Shown here: one piece after another, positions 6,705 to 22,114 of the stretch
How positions within the stretch are numbered: the stretch's first letter is position 1
Layout: each line of letters starts with the position of its first letter
Origin: a virus
Direction: 5' to 3' (one strand)
Virus record (IMG/VR): IMGVR_UViG_3300047472_000450
Span: 1 to 22,114 of that record
DNA: 22,114 nt
Notes under the pieces: generated by a model
What the model saw: only the letters and a program-made list of their open reading frames with translations
Database searches by the model: none
Told to the model about the DNA's origin: nothing
Made by a program: the position numbers and the translations under genes

Positions 6705-7141
6705 AGTTTCGCCGAGTGCCTGACTGGCCTGCCGCGCTGGCCGCGCTCATCGAGCGGCGGCGCGCCGAACCCTTTTTGTGGGGTCAGCAGGACTGCGTCA
6801 CTTTCGCTGCCGACGATGTGCTCGCGCTCACCGGCCAGGATGTCCTGGGTGAGCTGCGCGGTGCCTGGCGGTCGCTGGACGAGGCGGTAGCGGTGCTGCG
6901 GCGCGAGGGCGGTCTGCGCGCCGCGATCGCGCGGCGGCTGGGGGCGCCCTTGCCGACACCACGTCTCGCGCAGCGTGGGGACGTGCTGCTCGTGTCGCGG
7001 CCGCTGCTGACGGGCTGCGCCGTCGCCCGTAGGCGTCTCTTCGTCGCTGTCTGCGATGCCGATCGCTTCGTCGCGCCCGCCGAAGGTGGCCTGGTGCACG
7101 GGCCCATGCAGGCAGCACAGACCGCTTGGGGGGTGCGCTGA
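6674..7141 (+). CDS. DUF6950-family tail tip protein (NlpC/P60-like, gpK position)
   Basis: This reading is 155 residues from ATG 6674. A GTG at 6701, overlapping the previous stop as GTGA and giving a 146-residue protein that begins KFRRVPDWPAALAAL, is equally plausible and closer to the usual family N-terminus. The hallmark F-L-W-G-Q-Q-D-C-V-T-F-A-A-D (Cys in the WGxxDC block) aligns with the catalytic cysteine of NlpC/P60-like papain folds. A late His lies in GGLVHGPMQAAQTAWGVR. In lambda, gpK at this position combines a zinc peptidase and an NlpC/P60 domain and acts in tail tip assembly. Whether this short version is an active peptidase is unknown. It stops one base before the fibre gene ATG. 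Confidence 0.75.
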   Translation: MAQQDVFPPVKFRRVPDWPAALAALIERRRAEPFLWGQQDCVTFAADDVLALTGQDVLGELRGAWRSLDEAVAVLRREGGLRAAIARRLGAPLPTPRLAQRGDVLLVSRPLLTGCAVARRRLFVAVCDADRFVAPAEGGLVHGPMQAAQTAWGVR

Positions 7142-7142
7142 C

Positions 7143-10100
7143 ATGCCGGCCGCCGTACTCATCCCCATCTTGATCGACCTCGCGTCGGCCGCTGTGTGGC
7201 TGGCTGAGACCTACGGTCTGCAGCTCGCGCTGACGGCCGCGTCGGTCGTGATCGGCCGCGAACAACAGCGCCGTGCAGCCAACCGGGCCCGCGACGCCTA
7301 CAACGCGAACCTCACCGATCACCAGGTGATGATCCGTTCCGCGATTGCGCCGCGCACCATCGTCTACGGGCGCGACAAGGTGAGCGGCCCGGTACCCTTT
7401 GGGTTGAGCACAGGCGCAAAGGGCGAGTATCTGCTCGTGGTCGTCGTGCTGGCGGCCCACGAGTGCGACGCGATCGAAAAGGTCTACTTCAACGAGATCG
7501 AGGTGCCGGTCGACAGCGACGGCTTCGTGCGCACGGGTCAGTTCGCCAAGACGCAGGCAAAGACGACCGTGCAGAGTGTGACGGGCACCTCGCTGACGCT
7601 GACGCACGCGCCGACCCGCATCACCGGCGTGACGAAGAGTGTCGACACCGGCGACGGAGTCGACCGCGCGGCGATCGTCCCCTCGAGCGCCTATAGCCTG
7701 TCGGGCAGTACCATCACTTTCACGTCAAGCGGCAGCTACTTCGTCAACTACGAATATGACGACAGCACCGGCACCCCGCTGGTGCGGATCCGCAAGCACC
7801 TCGGCGGCCCTGGCCAGGTCGCAGACCCAGATCTGGTCGCCGAGTCCGGTGGCAAATGGACGTCGGCACATGTCGGCGTTGGCATCTGCTACCTGTACGT
7901 CCGGCTCCAATACGACCAGGAAGTCTTCGGCCAGATCGGCGTGCCGCAGATCAGCGGCGTGGTCCGCGGCAAGAAAGTCCGCGACCCGCGCACCGGTGCC
8001 ACCGCCTGGTCGGAGAACTGGGCGCTGTGCACGGGCGACTACATGCTCGACGCCGATCTCGGGATGGGTTTTGCCGTCGGCGAGCTGCCGGACGACGAGC
8101 TGACGGTGGCGGCGAACATCAGCGACGAAGACGTGGCCCTCGACCACGATGGCACGACGCAGAAGCGCTACACGCTCAACGGCTCGCTGTCGGTCGATAC
8201 CGGCCGGCGCGCTGCGCTGGAAAGCCTGCTGGCGCCAGGAGCGGGCACGGCCGTGTGGGTGCAGGGGCGCTGGCTGCTGCGCGCTGGCGCCTGGCGCACG
8301 CCCGAGTGGACGCTCGACGAGTCGTGGCTCGCTGACGGGCCGCTGCAAACGTCGCCGCGGCCGGCGCGCACCGATCTTTTCAACGCGCTCACCGGCACGT
8401 ATGTCGACCCGAATCAGGGCTACGCGGAGGTGGCGATGCCGGCTGTCACCAATGCCATGTACGAGACCGAAGACGGCGGCAAACGGATCTCGAAGGACGT
8501 GCAGATGCCTTACGTCCGCGACAGCTTGCGCGGGCAGCGGCTCAACAAGATCACGCTCGAGCGCGCCCGCCAGGCGCTGACGCTCAAGGCCACCTGCAAC
8601 ATGCGAGCCTACAACACCTTGCCGACGCAGGTCGGTACCGTGAATCTCGCGCGCTACGGCTTCGTATCGAAGGCGTTCGAGGTCACGGAGCGGGAATTCG
8701 ATGTCGGGGCCAACAAGGTCGCCCTGACGCTCCGCGAGACCGCCAGCGCCGTGTGGGACTGGAACTACGGCGAAGCCACGACGACCGATCTGGCGCCGAA
8801 TACTGTCCTTCCCGACCCCTTTGCGGTACCGCCCCAGCTCGCCAACTTGGCCGTCGCGACGGGCTCCGACCAGCTGCAGGTGCTGGCCGACGGCACGATC
8901 ATCACACGCGGCCTGGTCAGCTGGGACGCCAGCGCTGACATCTACGTGCAGAGCGGCGGCTCGATCGAGCTACAGTGGAAACTCGACTCCGCGACCACGT
9001 GGCAGAGCGCCTCGCCGGTGTCGGGCGATTCGACGAGTGCTTACATCGGGCCGCTCGACGATCGACGCGTGACCTTGGTGCGCGTGCGGGCCGTCAGCGG
9101 CCTCGGCAAGCCCGGGCCCTGGGCGACCGTCGCGATCACGGTGATCGGCAAGACCGAGCTGCCCGACAACGTCACCGGCTTCTCGTTCACGCTGATCCCG
9201 GGCGGCGTGCAGTTCAACTGGTCGCCCGAGACCGAGGCCGACTACCTCAATACCGAACTGCACGACGAGGCGGTGTGGAACAACGCGACAGCGCCAAAGT
9301 TCAAGGGCAACGCGACCACATGGACGTGGATGAACCCGTCGCTCGGCAGCCACACCATACTCGCCAAGAATCGCGACACAAGCGGCAATCTCTCGTCGAC
9401 GGCCGCCTCGGTAACGTTCACGATCGATCAGTCGATGCTGCAGCAGACGCTGACGCCGAGTGCGAACATTTCGGTCATCGGCAACACCGTGAAGAAGGTG
9501 AGCGGTACCAACGCATGGGACTCGGGCGCCTACAGCCAGGAACGCTACGCCGGCGGCTGCTACGTGTCCTTCCAGGCCGGCCAGACGAACGCCTACTTGA
9601 TGTGCGGCCTGAACCAAGATGCCGAAGCGACGAGCGGATACGCGGACATCGACTACACGTGGTATCCGCAAAACGATGGCAGCCTAAGGATCTATGAGAG
9701 CGGCGCGGCCGTCGGCGGGGGGACCAACTTCGGCAGCTATGACACCGACGACGTCTTGTCCATCGTCTACGACAACGAGAGCGTCACTTACATGCTCAAC
9801 GGCGTCGTCAAGCGCACCATTGCCGTTGCCGCCGGCCGGATCTTCGGGGCCGACATGTCGCTCTACAGCGTTGGCGGCCAATTGAAGAATGTCAGGTTTG
9901 GGCCGGCCGGCAGCCATGGCGCCGATGGAACTGCGTCCAAGATCCTGGTACTCGCCGCCTCGAGCCAGGTCTTCCAAATCCCTAAGAACGGCGGCGCGAT
10001 CGCGCCGGCGAGCATCACCTTCACCGCAAACGGACAGGGGCTTGCCGGCACGCCGTCCTTCAGCGTCACAGCGGGAACAGCGACCCTGACGGGAAGCGGC

Positions 10101-11795
10101 CTGACGCGCTCGCTGACGCCGGCGTCGATGACGACCGACACCGTGACGATCACCTGCACATGGGACGGGGAGACGGATCAAATCACCGTCGTCAAGGTTC
10201 GGGAGGGCAGCGACGCCTACAACGGTCTCCTGACCAACGAGTCGGCGACGGTGGCAGCCGACGCCGTCGGCACCGTGGCCAGCTTCGCCGGCGCCGGCGG
10301 CGAGTATCGCGTGTGGCTGGGTGCGACCGAGCTGACGACCGGAGTTGTGTACAGCCTGGTCAACAGCTCCGGTGTGACGCTCTCGATCAACGCCTCGACG
10401 GGCGTCTACGCGATCACCGCGATGAGCGCTGACAACGGCACCGCGACCTTGCGCGCGACCATCGGCAGCACCGTCATCGACAAGCTCTACACGATCGCGA
10501 AGAGCCGCGCCGGCGTGAACGGGCTGGATGGATCGGACGCGAAAATCATCGTCGTTGCCTCGTCGTCCCAGCTTTTCCAGGTTGCAAAGAGCGGCACCGT
10601 ATCGCCGTCGTCGATCGCGATCACTGTGGCCGGCCAGCACGTCGCGGGATCGCCAGTCTTCGCGGTCACGTCCGGCACCGCGACGCTCACCGGCTCTGGC
10701 AACAGCCGAACGCTCGCGTACGCCAACATGACGAGCGACAACGTGACCGTCACCGTCACCTGGGACGGACAAACCGACAGCGTGTCGATCGCCAAGGTGC
10801 GGGAGGGGAGCGACGCATACAACGGGCTGCTGACGAACGAGGCGGCGACCGTCTCGGCGACCGCCGGTGGCACCGTCTCGAGCTTCGCGGCCGCCGGCGG
10901 CGAGTTCCGCGTCTGGCTGGGCGCGAGCGAGCTGACGACGGGCGTCGTCTACAGCGTCGTCAGCAGCAGCGGCGTCACCATCGCGATCAACAGCTCGAGC
11001 GGCGTGTACACCGTCTCGGCCATGAGCGCCGACAGTGGCACGGCGACGCTGCGGGCGACGATCGGCAGCACGGTCATCGACAAGCTCTACACGATCGCGA
11101 AGAGTAAGGCGGGCACTGACGGCGCTGATGGTCAGACACTGACGCTGCAGGCCACCAGCTTGACGTTCAAGGTGCCGGCGAGTGGCTCGGCGACACCGTC
11201 CTCGATCACCCTGACGGCCGTCGGCCAGAATCTCGCCGGCTCGCCCACCTTCAGCGTCACCGGCGGGGCGACGCTGACGGGCAGCGGGAACACGCGCTCG
11301 CTCGCCTACGCGAACATGACCGTCGACTCGGTGACGGTCACCGTCGCATGGGGCACCCTCAGCGCCTCGCAGACGATCGTCAAGGTGCGCGACGGCTCGA
11401 ACGGCAGCTCGGGCACGCAGACCGTCGTCTTTCCGTACGTGATCGCGGAGCAATTCGTCCTGCAGCCGAACACCGCGCGCGCCGAGATCCGCTTCAACTC
11501 GGACGGCACGATCTCTCGGGTAATCGGAACGACGGCGACGAACGTCGGCAACTGGTACCTGCCGACCACGACCGGCATCGGCTCGAGCCACTACCTGCGG
11601 GTGCAGCTGCTCAGCGGCGACTCCCCCGGCGCGCTCGGCTCGTGGCGCCAGATCCTCACGAACCAGTCGGCGGTGCTCAGCACGAACAACAGCGACAAGC
11701 AATGCGCGCTGGCCTTCCAGGTCGCCTCCGACAGCTCAGGCAACACGATCACCGGGCAGGGCAACGGCGAGCTGCACGTCGCCAGCGAAACCTGA
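7143..11795 (+). CDS. Central tail fibre / host specificity protein, gpJ-like
   Basis: This 1550-residue protein starts at ATG 7143, one base after the previous stop; an in-frame extension upstream is the shadow of the preceding gene. The N-terminus carries a hydrophobic segment (residues ~2-38), then the gpJ-type IAPRTIVYGRDKVSGPVPFG. Residues ~320-540 fit the Phage-tail_3 region. Residues ~558-761 look like fibronectin type III domains (VSWDASADIYVQ, NVTGFSFTLIPGGVQFNWSP). Residues ~770-923 form a beta-sandwich, lectin-like domain (GGCYVSFQAGQTNAYLMCGL). From ~930 to ~1420 there are tandem repeats separated by short collagen-like linkers (GVNGLDG, GTDGADG, DGSNGSSG). The C-terminal ~130 residues are unlike the repeats and probably bind the host receptor. 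It forms the trimeric tip fibre. Confidence 0.92.
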   Translation: MPAAVLIPILIDLASAAVWLAETYGLQLALTAASVVIGREQQRRAANRARDAYNANLTDHQVMIRSAIAPRTIVYGRDKVSGPVPFGLSTGAKGEYLLVVVVLAAHECDAIEKVYFNEIEVPVDSDGFVRTGQFAKTQAKTTVQSVTGTSLTLTHAPTRITGVTKSVDTGDGVDRAAIVPSSAYSLSGSTITFTSSGSYFVNYEYDDSTGTPLVRIRKHLGGPGQVADPDLVAESGGKWTSAHVGVGICYLYVRLQYDQEVFGQIGVPQISGVVRGKKVRDPRTGATAWSENWALCTGDYMLDADLGMGFAVGELPDDELTVAANISDEDVALDHDGTTQKRYTLNGSLSVDTGRRAALESLLAPGAGTAVWVQGRWLLRAGAWRTPEWTLDESWLADGPLQTSPRPARTDLFNALTGTYVDPNQGYAEVAMPAVTNAMYETEDGGKRISKDVQMPYVRDSLRGQRLNKITLERARQALTLKATCNMRAYNTLPTQVGTVNLARYGFVSKAFEVTEREFDVGANKVALTLRETASAVWDWNYGEATTTDLAPNTVLPDPFAVPPQLANLAVATGSDQLQVLADGTIITRGLVSWDASADIYVQSGGSIELQWKLDSATTWQSASPVSGDSTSAYIGPLDDRRVTLVRVRAVSGLGKPGPWATVAITVIGKTELPDNVTGFSFTLIPGGVQFNWSPETEADYLNTELHDEAVWNNATAPKFKGNATTWTWMNPSLGSHTILAKNRDTSGNLSSTAASVTFTIDQSMLQQTLTPSANISVIGNTVKKVSGTNAWDSGAYSQERYAGGCYVSFQAGQTNAYLMCGLNQDAEATSGYADIDYTWYPQNDGSLRIYESGAAVGGGTNFGSYDTDDVLSIVYDNESVTYMLNGVVKRTIAVAAGRIFGADMSLYSVGGQLKNVRFGPAGSHGADGTASKILVLAASSQVFQIPKNGGAIAPASITFTANGQGLAGTPSFSVTAGTATLTGSGLTRSLTPASMTTDTVTITCTWDGETDQITVVKVREGSDAYNGLLTNESATVAADAVGTVASFAGAGGEYRVWLGATELTTGVVYSLVNSSGVTLSINASTGVYAITAMSADNGTATLRATIGSTVIDKLYTIAKSRAGVNGLDGSDAKIIVVASSSQLFQVAKSGTVSPSSIAITVAGQHVAGSPVFAVTSGTATLTGSGNSRTLAYANMTSDNVTVTVTWDGQTDSVSIAKVREGSDAYNGLLTNEAATVSATAGGTVSSFAAAGGEFRVWLGASELTTGVVYSVVSSSGVTIAINSSSGVYTVSAMSADSGTATLRATIGSTVIDKLYTIAKSKAGTDGADGQTLTLQATSLTFKVPASGSATPSSITLTAVGQNLAGSPTFSVTGGATLTGSGNTRSLAYANMTVDSVTVTVAWGTLSASQTIVKVRDGSNGSSGTQTVVFPYVIAEQFVLQPNTARAEIRFNSDGTISRVIGTTATNVGNWYLPTTTGIGSSHYLRVQLLSGDSPGALGSWRQILTNQSAVLSTNNSDKQCALAFQVASDSSGNTITGQGNGELHVASET
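9936..11400 (+). repeat. Tandem ~600-bp coding repeats inside the gpJ-like gene (about 2.5 copies)
   Basis: Three copies of an A module start near 9939, 10542 and 11133 (xSSQxFQVxxSG, TLTGSG-TRSL, VKVREGSDAYNGLLTNE), and two copies of a B module follow the first two (GEYRVWLGATELTTGVVYS, SAMSADxGTATLRATIGST). The B copies are exactly 600 bases apart: identical 32-base stretches lie at 10473-10504 and 11073-11104. Each A-B unit ends with a short Gly-X-Y linker. The third A module is not followed by B but by the unique C-terminal domain. Nucleotide similarity is high enough to allow length change by recombination. Confidence 0.88.
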
Positions 11796-11816
11796 TCAAT
11801 CCATCGAAGGAAACGT

Positions 11817-12524
11817 ATGAAGCTTCTGATCAACAAGTCGATGACCGCAGAGAACGGCGTGGCCGTCGAGCAGCACAGCATCACGCGCATCGAGCTGTCG
11901 CCCGACCTCGAGACGCTCTACATCGACATCGAGTCGTATGCATCCGAGGATGCGCGCGTCACCGGCGCCGGGCCCGCTTGGAGCTACCGGATCGCCGCGA
12001 CCGTCGCCGGGCTCACGCTTACCGGCGGGCTGCACGCCGGGATCGTGGCTGCTGTGCTCGCCGATGCGACCTTCGAGGGGGGAGAGGAAACGGCGGATGT
12101 GTCCGACGAACTGGCAACGGTCCAGGCGCGCCAGTGGGCGGCGATCAAGGCGCACCGCAATGCGATCGAGCTCAGCCCGTTTTCCTACGATTCGCACGAC
12201 TACGACGGCGACGCGGTCGCGCAGCGGCGCATCATCGGTGCCGTCGCCGCGGCGCTGGTCGAGCGCGTCGAATGGCTGACGACGAGCGTCAAGGCGCTGG
12301 CGACGCACGATTCGGTGACGCTGGGTGCGGAACCGACCTTCAGCCAGACATGGACGCTGGCTGACGATACGACCGAGGACCTCGACGAAGCCGGCATGTT
12401 CGGCCTCGGGATGGCCCTGCTGGATCGCACGGCCACCGCGTTCGCAACGGCTCGCGATCTCTACGACGAAATCATGGCAGCCACGACAACCGAGGACGCA
12501 GAAGCGGTCGCCTGGCCAGGCTGA
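11817..12524 (+). CDS. DUF4376-domain tail-fibre-associated protein
   Basis: This 235-residue protein starts at ATG 11817 with a good AAGGAAA (from 11807) upstream, 21 bases after the fibre gene. The first ~95 residues form a beta-rich domain (RIELSPDLETLYIDIESYAS). Residues ~100-230 match the DUF4376 pattern: W-A-A-I-K-A-H-R-N, a buried F-S-Y-D-S-H-D-Y-D-G-D segment, a long helix, W-T-L-A-D-D and a C-terminal amphipathic helix (LLDRTATAFATARDLYDEIM). DUF4376 domains sit next to or inside tail fibre proteins and are thought to act as fibre attachment or assembly modules. The role is inferred from this association. Confidence 0.75.
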   Translation: MKLLINKSMTAENGVAVEQHSITRIELSPDLETLYIDIESYASEDARVTGAGPAWSYRIAATVAGLTLTGGLHAGIVAAVLADATFEGGEETADVSDELATVQARQWAAIKAHRNAIELSPFSYDSHDYDGDAVAQRRIIGAVAAALVERVEWLTTSVKALATHDSVTLGAEPTFSQTWTLADDTTEDLDEAGMFGLGMALLDRTATAFATARDLYDEIMAATTTEDAEAVAWPG

Positions 12525-12648
12525 CAGATAGAACAGGGCGACCGTGCACGGTGCGGGAAACACCGGGCACGGCCGCCTTCCCGCAGAGGTAGCTGCGAGT
12601 GAGCCGAGGCCCTGCTGCCACGCGTGGCGGGGCGGAGTTTATTTCGCA
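12525..12648 (+). other. Structured intergenic leader between tail module and dam-like gene
   Basis: This 124-base gap holds no convincing coding sequence. A 12-bp stem with one A-G mismatch (12542-12553 with 12561-12572, seven-base loop) is followed by a small hairpin (12582-12586 with 12593-12597) and by a perfect 12-base palindrome at 12617-12628. A competing 7-bp pairing, GCGGGAA 12553-12559 with TTCCCGC 12578-12584, is mutually exclusive with the first stem. No T-run follows any stem, so a simple intrinsic terminator is not supported. The ribosome site of the methyltransferase (GGAG 12634-12637) lies at the 3' end, so this may be a regulatory leader. Confidence 0.45.
12542..12572 (+). 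other. Strong hairpin downstream of the tail module
   Basis: The arms CCGTGCACGGTG and CACCGGGCACGG pair over 11 of 12 positions around the loop CGGGAAA. It lies 18 bases after the DUF4376 gene stop. Without a following T-tract it may act as a 3' end protector, a processing or pausing site, or part of the leader for the next gene, rather than as a classical terminator. Confidence 0.5.
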
Positions 12649-13437
12649 ATGTCCGTTCCTATCGTCCCTTGGATAGGTGGAAAGCGTCGGCTCGCCGACA
12701 CGCTACTGCGTCGCTTTCCTCCTCACACGTGCTACGTCGAACTCTTCGCCGGTGGCGCAGCTCTGTTCTTTCTCCGGCAGCCCGCTGAGGTCGAGGTGCT
12801 CAACGACGTCAATGGCGAGCTGATCAATCTGTATCGCGTGGTGCAGCGCCACCTGGAAGAATTCGTTCGCCAGTTCAAATGGGCGCTCAGCTCGCGAGAG
12901 GTCTTTCGATGGTTGCAGGACACGCCGCCGCACACGCTGACCGACATCCAGCGGGCGGCGAGGTTCTACTACCTGCAGCAATTTGCCTTCGGCGGCAAGG
13001 TCACAGGACAGACGTGGGGAACGGCCACGACGGCCCCTCCGCTCAACCTCCTGCGTATCGAGGAGACGCTAAGCGCAGCCCATCTCCGTCTGGCAAGCGC
13101 TTACATCGAGCACCTCGACTGGGGCCGCTGCATCGAGGTCTACGACCGGCCGCACACGCTCTTCTATGCCGACCCTCCCTACTGGAAGACGGAAGGCTAT
13201 GGGGTGCCGTTCGCGTGGACTGAGTATGAAAGGCTCGCGCAGTGCATGGCGAGTCTCAAAGGCAAGGCGGTCGTCAGTCTCAACGATCACCCCGATATTC
13301 GGCGAACTTTCGGGGGCTTCGACATGGAGGTTGCCGAGATCGAGTATCAGGTCGGGGGCGGCGACCAGCGCGCGAAGCGTGGCGAGCTGATCATCTACAG
13401 CTGGGACCGCGCTCTCGACCCGCCAGGACTCTTCTGA
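12649..13437 (+). CDS. dam: Phage D12-class DNA N6-adenine methyltransferase (Dam-like)
   Basis: This 262-residue enzyme transfers a methyl group from S-adenosylmethionine to adenine N6 in DNA. I chose ATG 12649 (GGAG 11 bases upstream) because family members start shortly before the motif P-W-I-G-G-K-R-R-L, found here at residues 7-15. A longer GTG-initiated frame from 12544 would add 35 residues of unrelated leader sequence. Motif I, V-E-L-F-A-G-G-A-A-L-F-F, lies around residues 31-42 and the catalytic D-P-P-Y at 175-178, followed by W. This is the D12 class (Dam, DpnM, T4 Dam), often GATC-specific, but specificity cannot be read here. No restriction endonuclease neighbours it, so it is a solitary phage methyltransferase, likely for protection from host restriction or packaging/expression control. 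Confidence 0.88.
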   Translation: MSVPIVPWIGGKRRLADTLLRRFPPHTCYVELFAGGAALFFLRQPAEVEVLNDVNGELINLYRVVQRHLEEFVRQFKWALSSREVFRWLQDTPPHTLTDIQRAARFYYLQQFAFGGKVTGQTWGTATTAPPLNLLRIEETLSAAHLRLASAYIEHLDWGRCIEVYDRPHTLFYADPPYWKTEGYGVPFAWTEYERLAQCMASLKGKAVVSLNDHPDIRRTFGGFDMEVAEIEYQVGGGDQRAKRGELIIYSWDRALDPPGLF

Positions 13438-13476: not shown

Positions 13477-13498
13477 GCCCGCCGCTACGGTGGCGGGC
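13477..13498 (+). promoter_or_regulatory. GC-rich UACG-tetraloop hairpin directly before the gpW-like start
   Basis: Arms GCCCGCCGC (13477-13485) and GTGGCGGGC (13490-13498) pair over nine positions with one G-T wobble and close a TACG loop by a C-G pair, a UNCG-type arrangement that is unusually stable in RNA. It ends one base before ATG 13499 and contains the only SD-like purines (GGCGGG) for that start. It could terminate or protect the methyltransferase transcript and also limit translation of the gpW-like gene. There is no T-run. Confidence 0.5.
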
Positions 13499-13720
13499 AT
13501 GGCCATTTCGCAAGCAGATCTTGACGTACTCGACGCCGCGATCGTGGCGTCCGAGCTCGAAGTGCAGATGGCTGACGGCAGGCGGGTGCGCTATCGCTCG
13601 ATGAGCGAGCTGATGGCCGCCCGCAGCTTCGCTGCGTCTGCACTCGCCCAGGGCAGTGGCGGCGCGACGCGCCCGACAGGCTCGTTTCGGTACGACATGA
13701 TCGGCAGCCGGGACTGCTAA
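13499..13720 (+). CDS. Head-tail joining protein, lambda gpW-like
   Basis: This 73-residue protein starts at ATG 13499; a GTG at 13490 in the same frame would add three residues but lies inside the hairpin. It is close to the 68 residues of lambda gpW and has the same order of elements: an N-terminal helix (SQADLDVLDAAIVAS), a short hairpin (ELEVQMADGRRVRYRSMSE in continuous register) and a second helix (SELMAARSFAASAL). gpW plugs the portal after packaging and prepares it for tail joining. The stop overlaps the portal ATG by one base (TAATG), as expected for the gpW-gpB gene pair. The odd point is location: it lies after the tail genes with no terminase gene in front. Confidence 0.75.
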   Translation: MAISQADLDVLDAAIVASELEVQMADGRRVRYRSMSELMAARSFAASALAQGSGGATRPTGSFRYDMIGSRDC

Positions 13721-15252: not shown

Positions 15253-16101
15253 ATGCGAAGCGCTGTCCAACGCGGCAACATCATCACCCTCGTCGCGCCC
15301 TATGACGTGAAGGCCGGCGAGGGTCTGCTGGTGGGCGAGATCTTCGGCATCGCCACGGCCGACGCAGCCGCCGGCACGCCGCTCGAATGCGACGTCGTTG
15401 GCGTCACCGACATCGTCTGCCAAGACGGCGATACCGGCACGCCGGGTATGCCGGCGTACTGGGACGACGACAACCGCTGGATCACGGTCGGCGGCGGGAC
15501 GCCGGTCGGTCACCTCGTGGCGACGAAGACCGCTGGCTCACCGACCGCCCGTGTGCTGATGTCCGGGCCCGGCAGTTCGGGCTTCACAGCCGACGAGGTC
15601 GCCGCGATCCGCGCCAGGCTCAATGCGTCGCTGTCACCTGGCATCGGCGTTGCAATCGACGACAACGGTTCCGGCGCGCTCACGCTCTCCGCACTCATCG
15701 CCGGCACGCCGCAAAAGGATACGGTGGCGATCGCCAATGCCGTGGCGCTGACGACCGCCGTGAAGGCCGATGTGAGCGTCGGCGGCACCGGCAACGGCAT
15801 CGTGCTGCAGCCCGGCACATACCTCATCTTCGGCACGATCTGCTTCAACGGGACCGCGACTGCCGTGACCTACGCCGCGGGCTGGATCACGACGTCGACC
15901 GGTGCTGCGTTGCCGACGGGCGACCTGCGCACGACCTGGCTGGGTCGCGGCGCCGCGCTGCCTGCCGATTCAACCTACCCGGTGCCCTTGCAGGTCATCA
16001 CGGTCACGGTGGCGACGAACCTCCGCTTGTGCGCGCAAGCGAGCTTCACCGGCGGCACGTGCCTGGCCTACGGATCTCTCTCCGCGCTGAGACTGGCCTG
16101 A
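15253..16101 (+). CDS. DUF2190 decoration domain fused to a C-terminal beta-barrel, adhesin-like domain
   Basis: This 282-residue protein starts at ATG 15253 (AAAGAGAA upstream), 15 bases after the portal. Residues 1-~105 are a complete DUF2190 domain, with AVQRGNIITLVAPYDVKAG, GEIFGIATADAAAGT, a D-T-G-T-P-G-M-P-A-Y-W-D-D-D block and TARVLM, clearly paralogous to the free protein at 1-330. A linker with a short helix (DEVAAIRARLNASL) leads to residues ~130-282, a beta-rich domain (GTYLIFGTICFNGTATAVTY, AAGWITTSTGAALPTGDLRT, CAQASFTGGTCLAYGSLSAL) of the type I recognise from C-termini of phage fibre-like proteins. It may decorate the capsid and present a binding domain, or use the DUF2190 fold as an anchor elsewhere. 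Confidence 0.78.
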   Translation: MRSAVQRGNIITLVAPYDVKAGEGLLVGEIFGIATADAAAGTPLECDVVGVTDIVCQDGDTGTPGMPAYWDDDNRWITVGGGTPVGHLVATKTAGSPTARVLMSGPGSSGFTADEVAAIRARLNASLSPGIGVAIDDNGSGALTLSALIAGTPQKDTVAIANAVALTTAVKADVSVGGTGNGIVLQPGTYLIFGTICFNGTATAVTYAAGWITTSTGAALPTGDLRTTWLGRGAALPADSTYPVPLQVITVTVATNLRLCAQASFTGGTCLAYGSLSALRLA

Positions 16102-17165
16102 TGGTCGCGCATCCCGCCTTCTACGCACTGTCTTTGCCCGGCAATCAGCTGCTGCTGGATCAGCGCATTCCGGTTGTCGGTTCGCCGGGCGCGTACCACC
16201 CGCACACCGTCGACAAGTACATCCCGTCGGTACCGATCCGACAGGTGCTCTTTGTCCAGCACGGCGCCGGTGGCGACGTCAAGACGCACCTGAAGAAGCT
16301 GAAGATGTTCTCCGGCAGCACGCCGACGATGGCGAACGTCTCCTGGGGCGTGCTGGCCCACCTCGGCATCGCCGTCTACGCCATCGAAGGCTTCAACTGC
16401 GACGGCGTCTATGACGCGCAGTACAACCCGCGCGCGGTGACCGCCGTGGACGGCCAGGGTCGCAAGGTGCGCGCATGGCACAACGGAATCATGTACAGCG
16501 GCCACACGGCCCAGGGCGACCGCTCTGCGATCGTCGACTGCGTTGCGATGATCCGAACCGCGCATCAGGGCGCGCGCGTGGGCTTCTGCGGACACTCCAA
16601 TGGCGCCATGTGGGGCCAGCTCGAGCTCCTCACGTACGGCAGCACGGTCTTCGACTTCTTCTGCCTTGCCTCGGGGCCGCCGGGGCTTCCGCTGGCGCTC
16701 AATCTGCCTGCCACGCCGGGCGGCATTCCGCCTGTCTACTGCATCATGGGTGACGCCGACACTGTTATCGGTGTTGTGCAAAGCGGGGGCATCAACGCGG
16801 GGGTCTACACGCAGCCGCGCGAGAAGTTCTCGGTGGCCGACGTCTATTGGCCGGCCGAGGTCGCGCCGCCTGGCGATCCGCGTGTTGGCGAGACGCAGTG
16901 GCAGGGCATCTTCCCTGCGTTCCAGCACCAGGTGGATCTCCGCAACGCCGCCAAGGGTCTGGGCGCTCAGACCGTGGGCGCCGGCGTGACGAACGGGACC
17001 GTCACGACCTACACCGCATCGGTCAGTGGTGCCAATCCCTCCGGTGCGTGCGTGCTGGACATCGTCCATGGCAGCGATCACCAGATTGACCAATTGCAGG
17101 ACGTTGGCGGCCTCACCTTGATTCCGAAGTACGCGGGCTTCGGCTACGCGAATGCTGCCGGCTGA
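16101..17165 (+). CDS. Phage-encoded alpha/beta hydrolase (PHB-depolymerase/feruloyl-esterase-like)
   Basis: This 354-residue protein starts at ATG 16101, overlapping the previous stop by one base (TGATG), so it is translationally coupled to the DUF2190 fusion. The frame has the order expected of the polyhydroxybutyrate depolymerase / LpqC esterase group: strand VRQVLFVQHGAGGD style oxyanion loop (seen as QVLFVQHGAGGD, ~49-60), a nucleophile elbow G-F-C-G-H-S-N-G-A with Ser166, an acidic residue in M-G-D-A-D-T-V-I (Asp220 is best placed) and a His in V-H-G-S-D-H-Q (His323 or His327). No signal peptide is seen. The substrate is unknown. A host surface ester such as O-acetylated polysaccharide, or a storage polymer released at lysis, is possible. 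Its setting between two virion-type proteins favours a virion enzyme. Confidence 0.8.
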   Translation: MVAHPAFYALSLPGNQLLLDQRIPVVGSPGAYHPHTVDKYIPSVPIRQVLFVQHGAGGDVKTHLKKLKMFSGSTPTMANVSWGVLAHLGIAVYAIEGFNCDGVYDAQYNPRAVTAVDGQGRKVRAWHNGIMYSGHTAQGDRSAIVDCVAMIRTAHQGARVGFCGHSNGAMWGQLELLTYGSTVFDFFCLASGPPGLPLALNLPATPGGIPPVYCIMGDADTVIGVVQSGGINAGVYTQPREKFSVADVYWPAEVAPPGDPRVGETQWQGIFPAFQHQVDLRNAAKGLGAQTVGAGVTNGTVTTYTASVSGANPSGACVLDIVHGSDHQIDQLQDVGGLTLIPKYAGFGYANAAG

Positions 17166-17173
17166 GGAGCTAC

Positions 17174-19126
17174 ATGAAGAACGCCTTTCAACGTGGGAAC
17201 GTGGTCACCCTGGTCGCGCCTTATCCGGTCCGCTCCGGTGACGGAGTTCAAGTCGGAGGTCTCTTTGGAATCGCAGCCAGTGATGCACCAGCGAACGCCG
17301 CAGTCGAATGCGAGCTCGTGGGCGCGGCGCAGATCAACGCCTATCCCGATGACGTCGGTGAGATAGGTGACGCGATCTACTGGGACAACTCCAGCCGATG
17401 GGCCACGACGTCAAACAGCGGCATGGAGATCGGATACCTGCTATCGCCCAAGCGGCCAGGATCGACGACCGTCCTTGTGCGCCTCATCGGCGCGGGAGCC
17501 GGCAATTCCTTCGGAGCGTCGTCGGCTTCGGGGACATGGCAAGTGCTGCCGACGATCCTCGGTCTGGCGCTGAGCACGCCGGGATTTGGCTCCAGCGCGC
17601 CGGACCCAAAGAAGGGGTCACCGGCGATCAACTATGTTGCCGGTCTCAGCTATGCGAAGGGCGCCGTTCGAGCGAAGGGCGGAAACATCTACCAGGCGAC
17701 AAATGCTGCCCCTGGGGTTGCGGGCGCATCAAGCCCTCCGACCGGCACAGGCAGCGGGATCGTCGATGGTGGGGTGATCTGGAAATATCTGCGCGCTGAC
17801 CCCGACCGCTGGCTCGCAAACACAGTCTACGCGCGCGGCACCTATGTGAACAACGCGGACGCGCTCTACTACTGCATCCAGGGTGGCACGTCGGCATCCT
17901 CTGGCGGCCCGGCCGTCAACAACGTCAACATCGTCGACAACACGTGCCTCTGGAACCGGGTGACGAACCAGTTCTACGATTGCGTCAGCGGCGACGACAC
18001 GAACAACGGCCAGAACCATACGGTGCCCAAGAAGACGCTGCCGCTGGTGGCGGGATCGAACATCCGCTACCTCGCCGCGGCCGGCACTGGCATCAAGCTG
18101 ACCGGCTCCACCGCCCAAAACGGAATCGCCATCAATGGTCCGGCCATCATCCTGACGGTGTGGGATCGCGCAACGGGCAATGAAAACGTCGCGCAAAAAA
18201 ACCCCTTCACGGAGGGCTGCAAAGGCAACTGGTACACCGCCGCCGATCTCGCGAACTACTTCACCTACGAAGGCAACAGTCTCGACGTTGGTCTGTACCT
18301 CGGCACCAACGGGCAGGGGGTCGTCAGCGTGATGCAGGCGGACCCACCACTGGTACGCGGATGGCGCGTCAAAGGGTTCGGGTACGGCGGCATCGTGGCA
18401 AAGAACGGTTGCGCGATGCGAATCGAGGACTGCATCGTCGTCGACAACCAGAGGATCTCGAACCCGGCCGCGCCATTTGGTGGTTGCGGGATCAAGTTCG
18501 AGGGAACGTCTGCCGGCCTGGGCGCACCGCCCGGGACATGCCAGGTCGTTCGGTGCTGGGTCTCAGGCTCTGGCGAGGACGAGATCTGGGCGGCCGACGC
18601 GCCGGAGTGCGCAAGGGCGCCCGTCTTCAGGGACACGTGCATCCGCCACTACGGCGCGCAGCAGAAGTTCAACACACAGCACAGCGATGGCATCCAACTC
18701 GGCACGTACCCGGGTGACTTCGTCTGCCAGCGCGTGATCATTGAGCACCAACTCGCGCAGAACTTCCCGCTGGACCCGACCGGCGGCAGCGGCAACTACG
18801 TCGTTGGATCAGCCTTCCTGGCAGTCGCCCCGGCCGGCACGGTCGCCACGGGCGGCAACCTGACCGACTGCATCCTGATCAGCGACACCCTGCTGTTCAA
18901 CCTGCAGGCGCAGGCGGGCGTCGCGTTGAACCGCGTGGTCGGATATCACAACTACAACGCCGACACGGCCCAGTCGCTGCCGCCATCGGGTGGCGTGTTC
19001 GCCGGCGTGGCCTACACCGAGACCGGTTGCCGCTGGGTGACCGGTGTACTGCCGCCTGGCTTTGGCGTGAGATACGCGGCAGGCGGCGTGACCATCAACA
19101 GCCCGGCGGGCGAGTTCATCGGCTAG
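17174..19126 (+). CDS. DUF2190 decoration domain fused to carbohydrate-binding repeats and a right-handed beta-helix (tailspike/depolymerase-like)
   Basis: This 650-residue protein starts at ATG 17174 with GAGGAG at 17163-17168. Residues 1-~108 are the third DUF2190 domain (AFQRGNVVTLVAPYPVRSGD, GGLFGIAASDAPAN, AIYWDNSSRWATTS). Residues ~155-270 contain two related modules: YAKGAVRAKGGNIYQATN...DGGVIWKYLR and WLANTVYARGTYV...YYCIQGGTSASSGGP...CLWNRV, resembling small carbohydrate-binding modules of phage fibres. From ~272 (FYDCVSGDDTNNGQNH) a parallel beta-helix is likely, with rungs such as VKGFGYGGIVAKNGCAMRIE and a TQHSDGIQLG segment typical of pectate-lyase-like folds. Such proteins usually bind or cleave capsule, LPS or exopolysaccharide. 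Catalytic residues cannot be assigned. The DUF2190 head piece in place of a tail anchor is unusual. Confidence 0.8.
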   Translation: MKNAFQRGNVVTLVAPYPVRSGDGVQVGGLFGIAASDAPANAAVECELVGAAQINAYPDDVGEIGDAIYWDNSSRWATTSNSGMEIGYLLSPKRPGSTTVLVRLIGAGAGNSFGASSASGTWQVLPTILGLALSTPGFGSSAPDPKKGSPAINYVAGLSYAKGAVRAKGGNIYQATNAAPGVAGASSPPTGTGSGIVDGGVIWKYLRADPDRWLANTVYARGTYVNNADALYYCIQGGTSASSGGPAVNNVNIVDNTCLWNRVTNQFYDCVSGDDTNNGQNHTVPKKTLPLVAGSNIRYLAAAGTGIKLTGSTAQNGIAINGPAIILTVWDRATGNENVAQKNPFTEGCKGNWYTAADLANYFTYEGNSLDVGLYLGTNGQGVVSVMQADPPLVRGWRVKGFGYGGIVAKNGCAMRIEDCIVVDNQRISNPAAPFGGCGIKFEGTSAGLGAPPGTCQVVRCWVSGSGEDEIWAADAPECARAPVFRDTCIRHYGAQQKFNTQHSDGIQLGTYPGDFVCQRVIIEHQLAQNFPLDPTGGSGNYVVGSAFLAVAPAGTVATGGNLTDCILISDTLLFNLQAQAGVALNRVVGYHNYNADTAQSLPPSGGVFAGVAYTETGCRWVTGVLPPGFGVRYAAGGVTINSPAGEFIG

Positions 19127-21253: not shown

Positions 21254-22114
21254 ATGGCAACGGCAAAGACGAAGAGCTTCAAGGTGGACTTTTATGCAAC
21301 AGGTTCGGATGGAGACAGAACTTCACCAGACTTCGCCGAGCTACTCGCCCGGGCAGTGGATGGCCGGACAGAGGCTTTGGCGCTCGACTCCGAGGAAGAC
21401 CGTTATCAGGTAAGGTCGATCATCCCCAGTGCCAAGGGCGCAGTCGTGTTGGGTGTCTTCGGCCGGTGCAGATTCGGAGAGCAACCTGTGCAGGGGACCA
21501 TGGACGGTCAGGAGTCCGACGTTGAACTAGCACCAGGCCACGGCCTAATCCAAAAAAATCACTTTATGTTTGTTTCTGCCTTGAATTTGCTGGTTTATCA
21601 ACGGAACGTTGATGGCAGCCACATTTCACGGTTTCAGAGCTACGTCAGGCATGCTACGGGGCGACCCGTCGAGCTCGAGCCACTCTTGACGCGAGACTCC
21701 TACCGAAAGCTCTTGGAAGGTGGCGAAGCGAAGTGGGTCGATTTTTCGTTCAGCAAGCCCAAGGATCCGAGCATGTACGAGGGAATGGCCACAAAAAAGG
21801 CGGTCGAACTCGTCAACGAGATGGGTGGACTGAATGCTCGCATCCGAGTGAGCGTAGGACGTAGTGACCAGACATTGGTGAACCAGCTCAAGGATGCGAT
21901 CGTGATGATGGCCCGAAGCGGCCAGGCCAAGGTCGCGCGGGTTAAACTTGAAGAACTAGAAGCGCCTGTGGACCTGATCGCCGAGCGCATTGTTGAGACG
22001 GCGACCGTACCGGTTCAAGAAAATGGACGTCCTTCGTCGAGAGACATCTATGCGGCTCTACAGGAGGCTAGAACCCAACGAGGTGACGACATCCGCACGT
22101 TCTTCGGCACGTGA
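21254..22114 (+). CDS. Unrecognised 286-residue protein at the right edge, likely acquired cargo (moron) gene
   Basis: This protein starts at ATG 21254 behind GGAAGGGG and ends with the last base of the window. I do not recognise it firmly. The N-terminal KSFKVDFYATG strand, an acidic helix (SPDFAELLARAVDG), RYQVRSIIPSAKGAVVLGVFGR and GHGLIQKNHFMFVSALNLLVYQRN suggest an alpha/beta domain. Residues ~180-240 (TKKAVELVNEMGGLNARIRV, DQTLVNQLKDAIVMMARSG) look like a second helical part. There is no signal peptide or membrane helix. General shape and size recall uncharacterised families such as DUF6731, which I cannot verify. The DNA is visibly less GC-rich than the phage genes (for example 21541-21610), with its own leader. 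Together with the location after the lysis cassette, this suggests a recently acquired moron, perhaps defence related. Confidence 0.8.
   Translation: MATAKTKSFKVDFYATGSDGDRTSPDFAELLARAVDGRTEALALDSEEDRYQVRSIIPSAKGAVVLGVFGRCRFGEQPVQGTMDGQESDVELAPGHGLIQKNHFMFVSALNLLVYQRNVDGSHISRFQSYVRHATGRPVELEPLLTRDSYRKLLEGGEAKWVDFSFSKPKDPSMYEGMATKKAVELVNEMGGLNARIRVSVGRSDQTLVNQLKDAIVMMARSGQAKVARVKLEELEAPVDLIAERIVETATVPVQENGRPSSRDIYAALQEARTQRGDDIRTFFGT

Follow-up and report, generated by a model that had tools for sequence, protein, structure and literature searches.

A head-decoration domain (DUF2190) as N-terminal base of two long proteins, probably capsid appendages, in a lambda-like siphophage fragment

Many decoration proteins of viral heads chiefly stabilise the head (PMC7602432). 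The gp48 protein of phage phiCD508 is a capsid decoration trimer present in 420 copies, each trimer contacting nine capsid proteins (PMC11948020). The combination of a decoration-fold base with a projecting part is already known from phi29, whose head fibre protein gp8.5 (280 aa) consists of a base of ~110 aa followed by a C-terminal fibre and is localised on quasi-3-fold sites (PMC6542822, PMC7602432). The turrets of HFTV1 carry a deacetylase-like and a carbohydrate-binding-like domain and have been proposed to mediate a first reversible attachment (PMC12494034), and the head spikes of RcGTA provide a head-borne contact with glycans by binding the capsule polysaccharide of the host (PMC7296036). 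T4 Hoc and T5 pb10 are capsid-bound accessory proteins whose projecting domains aid adhesion to carbohydrates.

In the present study we have analysed a window of 22,114 bases, which is a whole IMG/VR entry and, judged by its gene content, is a fragment of a lambda-like siphophage. The genes follow the order DUF2190, head-tail attachment protein (PF05354), tail genes, tape measure, J, DUF4376, Dam methylase, gpW, portal, fusion 1, hydrolase-like gene, fusion 2, holin and GH19 endolysin, and neither a terminase gene nor a capsid gene was seen within the 22,114 bases. Fusion 1 and fusion 2 are long proteins that begin with a DUF2190 domain (Table 1). We propose that both are probably capsid appendages, that is head fibres or spikes, in which the DUF2190 domain forms the base and the outer part is directed toward host polysaccharide; the location on the capsid is what we infer from the evidence discussed below.

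Table 1. Coordinates of the DUF2190 proteins and neighbouring genes in the window, with the supporting matches.
Feature	Position	Strand	Evidence or description
Free DUF2190 / Phage_cement_2 head decoration protein, 109 aa	1..330	+	PF09956 86.8 bits, E 1.4e-24; PHROG 122 E 3e-29
gpW-like head-tail adaptor	13490..13720	+	phrog_2545 head-tail adaptor Ad1, E 1e-12
Lambda-family portal protein, 505 aa	13720..15237	+	PF05136 E 6e-93
Fusion 1, whole protein, 282 aa	15253-16101	+	N-terminal DUF2190 of ~105 residues and C-terminal part
Fusion 1, N-terminal DUF2190 domain, residues 1-106	15253..15570	+	PF09956 58.3 bits, E 1.1e-15 (residues 5-101)
Fusion 1, C-terminal part, residues 107-282	15571..16101	+	predicted short helix 113-126, then region without known relatives
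Hydrolase-like protein, 354 aa	16101..17165	+	G-H-S-N-G nucleophile-elbow motif; candidate Asp (GDAD) and His (HGSDH)
Fusion 2, whole protein, 650 aa	17174-19126	+	DUF2190, tandem CBM5/12-like modules and C-terminal part
Fusion 2, N-terminal DUF2190 domain, residues 1-107	17174..17494	+	PF09956 61.6 bits, E 1e-16 (residues 6-104)
Fusion 2, two tandem CBM5/12-like modules, approximate borders	17630..17960	+	repeat score; PF02839 E 0.009, below cut-off
Fusion 2, C-terminal part, possible right-handed beta-helix	17961..19126	+	PF13229 22 bits, below 25.9 cut-off

The identity of the three DUF2190 domains is well defined. A sequence-only reading of this DNA had claimed that the N-termini of the two long proteins share their domain with the free 109-aa protein, and this is borne out by PF09956, whose curated cut-off of 24 bits is exceeded in all three proteins by matches spanning nearly all of the 103 profile positions, and by PHROG 122 'head decoration' (E 2e-17 for fusion 1 and 5e-21 for fusion 2). 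These E-values exclude a chance occurrence of the three copies, which show 42-45% pairwise identity. The shared motifs listed in the same reading are present with small differences, the ending given as VRL being for instance VLM in the 282-aa protein. The free copy stands in the usual place of the family, ahead of the head-tail attachment gene. In searches of Pfam and PHROGs the N-termini of both fusions matched head-decoration families only, and no known tail-anchoring family was found.

In order to examine the fold of the fused domains, AlphaFold2 models of both fusions were built with DUF2190 rows from related loci. Both N-domains were predicted with a pLDDT of about 97 as decoration-type folds, and the best solved match in each case is phiCD508 gp48 (9gay), with Z 13.7 for fusion 1 and 13.4 for fusion 2 over 106-107 residues (rmsd 2.6 Å). 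This protein is also found by sequence with the DUF2190 profile (E 1.1e-11); it differs, however, in being a plain subunit of 127 residues with no appended domains, from a phage of a distant host. The next match is a capsid chain of HFTV1 (Z ~10), followed by the decoration proteins of Pam3, Sf11, XM1, FCWL1, TW1 and T1 (Z 7.5-8.6), lambda gpD (6.3-6.6), the phi29 head-fibre base gp8.5-N (6.2-6.4) and the C-terminal part of the phi29 tailspike gp12 (3gqh; 5.9-6.2), where values of Z below 8 may mean only a common arrangement. Proteins annotated as head fibre in a viral model library also match fusion 1. Since the tailspike gp12 is among the matches, the fold alone is no proof of a capsid location.

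The closest architectural parallel is phi29 gp8.5, which has a base of the same fold class first and a projecting part at the C-terminus, and whose 280 aa compare with the 282 aa of fusion 1. Both fusions have, in unbroken reading frames, the domain order of the gp8.5 type, a decoration-fold base and then a C-terminal part. The match to gp8.5 is nevertheless by fold only (Z about 6) and not by sequence, and the C-terminus of gp8.5 is a helical supercoil rather than a set of glycan-type modules.

The origin of the fused domains was explored with a tree of 129 DUF2190 domains, in which the two appear as sisters (99/98), although both sit on long branches, and long branches can be grouped together falsely. 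They group with the free copy of the window and with L068, L069 and L080 at 96/73, which is below the starred threshold, and a second quick tree likewise places the free copy close to the fused domains. Furthermore, 23 and 25 of the 29 family-conserved positions are kept in the two fused domains, the mean of the 123 plain copies being 26.1. These observations fit a descent of the fused domains from the phage's own decoration lineage under continuing constraint. The re-use of a capsid-decoration fold as an N-terminal base, the central claim of the earlier reading, is backed in this way by profile, structure model and tree.

The position of the cassette is more ambiguous. Portal, fusion 1, hydrolase-like gene and fusion 2 show a tight, operon-like layout, with 15 bases between portal and fusion 1, an overlap of the fusion 1 stop with the start of the hydrolase-like gene (TGATG), and 8 bases between the stop of the latter and the start of fusion 2. 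The reading frames of the fusions are unbroken at the domain boundaries and show strong coding bias (GC3 0.70-0.86); the fusions are thus not frameshift artefacts. The portal, which shares 54% identity with that of Stenotrophomonas phage S1 and lies directly 5' of the cassette, stands together with gpW outside its usual place. The relatives have terminase, gpW, portal, capsid/protease, DUF2190 and tail in this order, so that the gpW-portal-cassette block found here between Dam and holin is either a displaced block or a second copy. Such a block might belong to a defective or mis-assembled element whose fusions are neither made nor used, in keeping with a portal that follows J and Dam instead of preceding the capsid gene and with a record that is a fragment lacking capsid and terminase genes. 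However, no gene of the block is disrupted, coding bias is strong throughout and the genes are closely spaced, and a mis-assembly would need two wrong joins, one before gpW and one after fusion 2; we regard this as the least probable of the explanations considered, with very little to be expected of it. In the J-like tail protein gene (7056-11795) it is possible to see two direct repeats of 300 bases at 10189-11088, 80% identical and 600 bases apart.

The main rival explanation is that the decoration domain has been recruited as a tail or baseplate anchor, the long proteins being an ordinary tail fibre and tailspike. It owes this rank to the location of the fusions downstream of tail genes, in the window as well as in two other viruses described below (L094 and G192), and to the similar fold of the gp12 C-terminus. 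In the window the genes sit downstream of J, DUF4376 and Dam and immediately ahead of the holin and endolysin genes, the usual site of tail-fibre genes, and CBM-like modules of the same type as those of fusion 2 occur in phage baseplate proteins. Against it stand the exclusive match of the N-domains to head-decoration families, their retention of most family-conserved positions, and the head genes gpW and portal at the start of the block. On balance we consider a tail anchor rather unlikely. The caveat of the sequence-only reading that the cassette lies in the usual tail-fibre position was half right: the block does lie between J/Dam and the lysis genes, yet the cassette itself directly follows the head genes gpW and portal.

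The C-terminal parts are less well defined than their bases. Their pLDDT is mostly below 50, the alignments being deep only in the N-domain; in fusion 1 it is 76-79 at residues 101-130 and mostly below 50 beyond. No relatives of these parts were found in IMG/VR or among GenBank phages except for the DUF2190 part and a CBM-like module of ~53 residues. The duplicated module that had been noticed in the 650-aa protein was recovered with a local repeat score of 45, a value that 2 of 2000 shuffles reach (shuffle scores 23 +/- 4.4), and its likeness to CBM5/12 is supported. For the 'fibre-type beta-barrel' ascribed to the 282-aa protein neither family nor fold evidence was obtained, and the beta-helix ascribed to the 650-aa protein did not reach the Pfam threshold. 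The 'polymer-degrading' character of these modules is accordingly putative.

Between the fusions, the hydrolase-like protein contains candidates for the Ser (in G-x-S-x-G), Asp and His of an alpha/beta-hydrolase in this order, with the motifs at positions 164, 217 and 323. It has no match in Pfam, PHROG or NCBIfam and no relatives in IMG/VR, GenBank phages or 369 bacterial genomes; its PDB matches, which are antibody chains, were dismissed as effects of chance or composition. The TGATG overlap with fusion 1 and the shared operon fit its belonging to the cassette set, as had been suggested.

A further alternative holds that the long proteins are plain variants of a capsid stabiliser, with C-terminal parts that sit on the head and form, for example, a protective surface layer with no role in host contact. 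Stabilisation is the main function of many decoration proteins (PMC7602432), and the activity of the C-terminal parts is only putative. However, the tandem CBM-like modules, the weak beta-helix match and the coupled hydrolase-like gene all suggest a connection with glycans, and esterases are found in the corresponding slot of relatives; we therefore hold this reading to be highly improbable.

The preferred reading, a capsid appendage, can also be compared with heads of known or proposed glycan contact. The HFTV1 head bears sugar-type domains, and its capsid chain has the same fold as the fused N-domains; its sugar-active part, in contrast, is carried by a turret base of its own on the capsid hexamers and is not fused to the stabilisation protein. 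The RcGTA spikes (Rcc01079/Rcc01080) differ in their position at five-fold vertices, their jellyroll base, which is not DUF2190, and their separate fibre protein, while T4 Hoc and T5 pb10 use Ig-like domains as monomers at quasi-6-fold sites on another base (PMC7602432). A DUF2190 base in two long versions beside a plain copy, with CBM-like modules and a coupled hydrolase-like gene, was unmatched elsewhere in this analysis.

C-terminal fusions of DUF2190 are rare among the 142 loci with DUF2190 and the roughly 140 matches in bacterial genomes. In L094 (IMGVR_UViG_2889415604_000003) the domain continues into a GDSL esterase (PF13472, E 2e-12), with a plain copy present in this virus as well, at a distance of about 12 kb from the fusion; this is an independent DUF2190-esterase fusion. 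In G192 a DUF2190 domain (34-39 bits) is followed by about 500 residues of no assigned family, 15.7 kb downstream of a plain copy; the gene directly preceding it looks by eye like the DUF4376 type associated with tail fibres, and a methylase-like gene follows. Shorter C-terminal extensions are carried by the DUF2190 copy after the capsid gene in L144 (157 aa) and L027 (59 aa), which indicates that the domain tolerates C-terminal additions in its usual post-capsid place. Three sorts of candidate were set aside, namely an apparent 3000-aa fusion in G314 (L152), which is masked sequence, a 205-aa tail in G086 (L158), whose DUF2190 domain was unconfirmed by hmmscan, and several long open frames among the genome matches that are upstream extensions and not C-terminal fusions.

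A similar arrangement to that of the cassette (portal, DUF2190 fusion, hydrolase-like gene, DUF2190 fusion) is seen in L016, whose post-portal set (8836-12829) comprises a second DUF2190 protein of 138 aa, a LamG+GDSL protein of 721 aa and a protein of 461 aa with similarity to a PHROG minor tail protein. Variable genes amounting to 2.2-4.3 kb fill the slot between portal and capsid in about 20 related loci (L016, L071, L073, L076, L077, L081, L085, L087, L089, L097, L105, L110, L112, L114, L119, L120, L121, L127, L133 and L142). Cargo of this slot includes GDSL esterases (L120, L142) and a SASA acetylesterase (L119), and several of its genes end in a common C-terminal domain of ~100 aa (ANGERFYRSIQFNRVDN and variants). 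Some post-portal cargo of the relatives bears a weak likeness to the Gp77 fibre-tail adaptor (PF23148, E 0.01-0.14, below cut-off), a hint that part of it could be tail-borne.

As capsid appendages, the two proteins may function as follows. Like phiCD508 gp48, the N-terminal DUF2190 domain, probably a trimer, would occupy (quasi-)three-fold sites of the head, while the C-terminal part would extend outward as in the head fibre gp8.5. The long versions would be mixed with plain 109-aa subunits on one head or fill some of the sites of these subunits. The projecting parts, namely the CBM5/12-like modules and possible beta-helix of fusion 2 and the uncharacterised part of fusion 1, might bind or act on surface polysaccharide of the host, holding the phage reversibly before the tail engages, and the co-transcribed hydrolase-like protein could act on the same polymer as a virion part or helper. 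We infer capsid location, trimer, binding and catalysis alike, and enzymatic activity on the capsid is possible. A more far-reaching version would be a mixed display head, in which one decoration fold exists as a plain and at least two long versions with glycan-binding or glycan-cutting modules on the same sites, together with a dedicated hydrolase in the operon, while other viruses have made such fusions independently (L094); to this we give only tentative credence, and it may well not hold.

If the proposal is correct, a common small family of head-decoration proteins would serve as a reusable base for sugar-binding or enzymatic capsid arms, in phages for which adsorption is usually regarded as a task of the tail. 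This would bear on the passage of phages through capsules and biofilm matrix and would offer a natural example of capsid display. Titles and abstracts of the open-licence literature on DUF2190 did not suggest such fusions, and earlier reports may exist; nor did any title in that literature appear pertinent to a capsid decoration protein joined to a lyase or esterase.

Finally, the two ends of the record deserve a comment. Positions 1-3 coincide exactly with the start codon ATG of the gene for the free DUF2190 protein and may mark a trimmed provirus border, and the opposite end (21254-22114) is a stretch of lower G+C with an open-ended DUF6731 protein (PF20505, E 1e-11).
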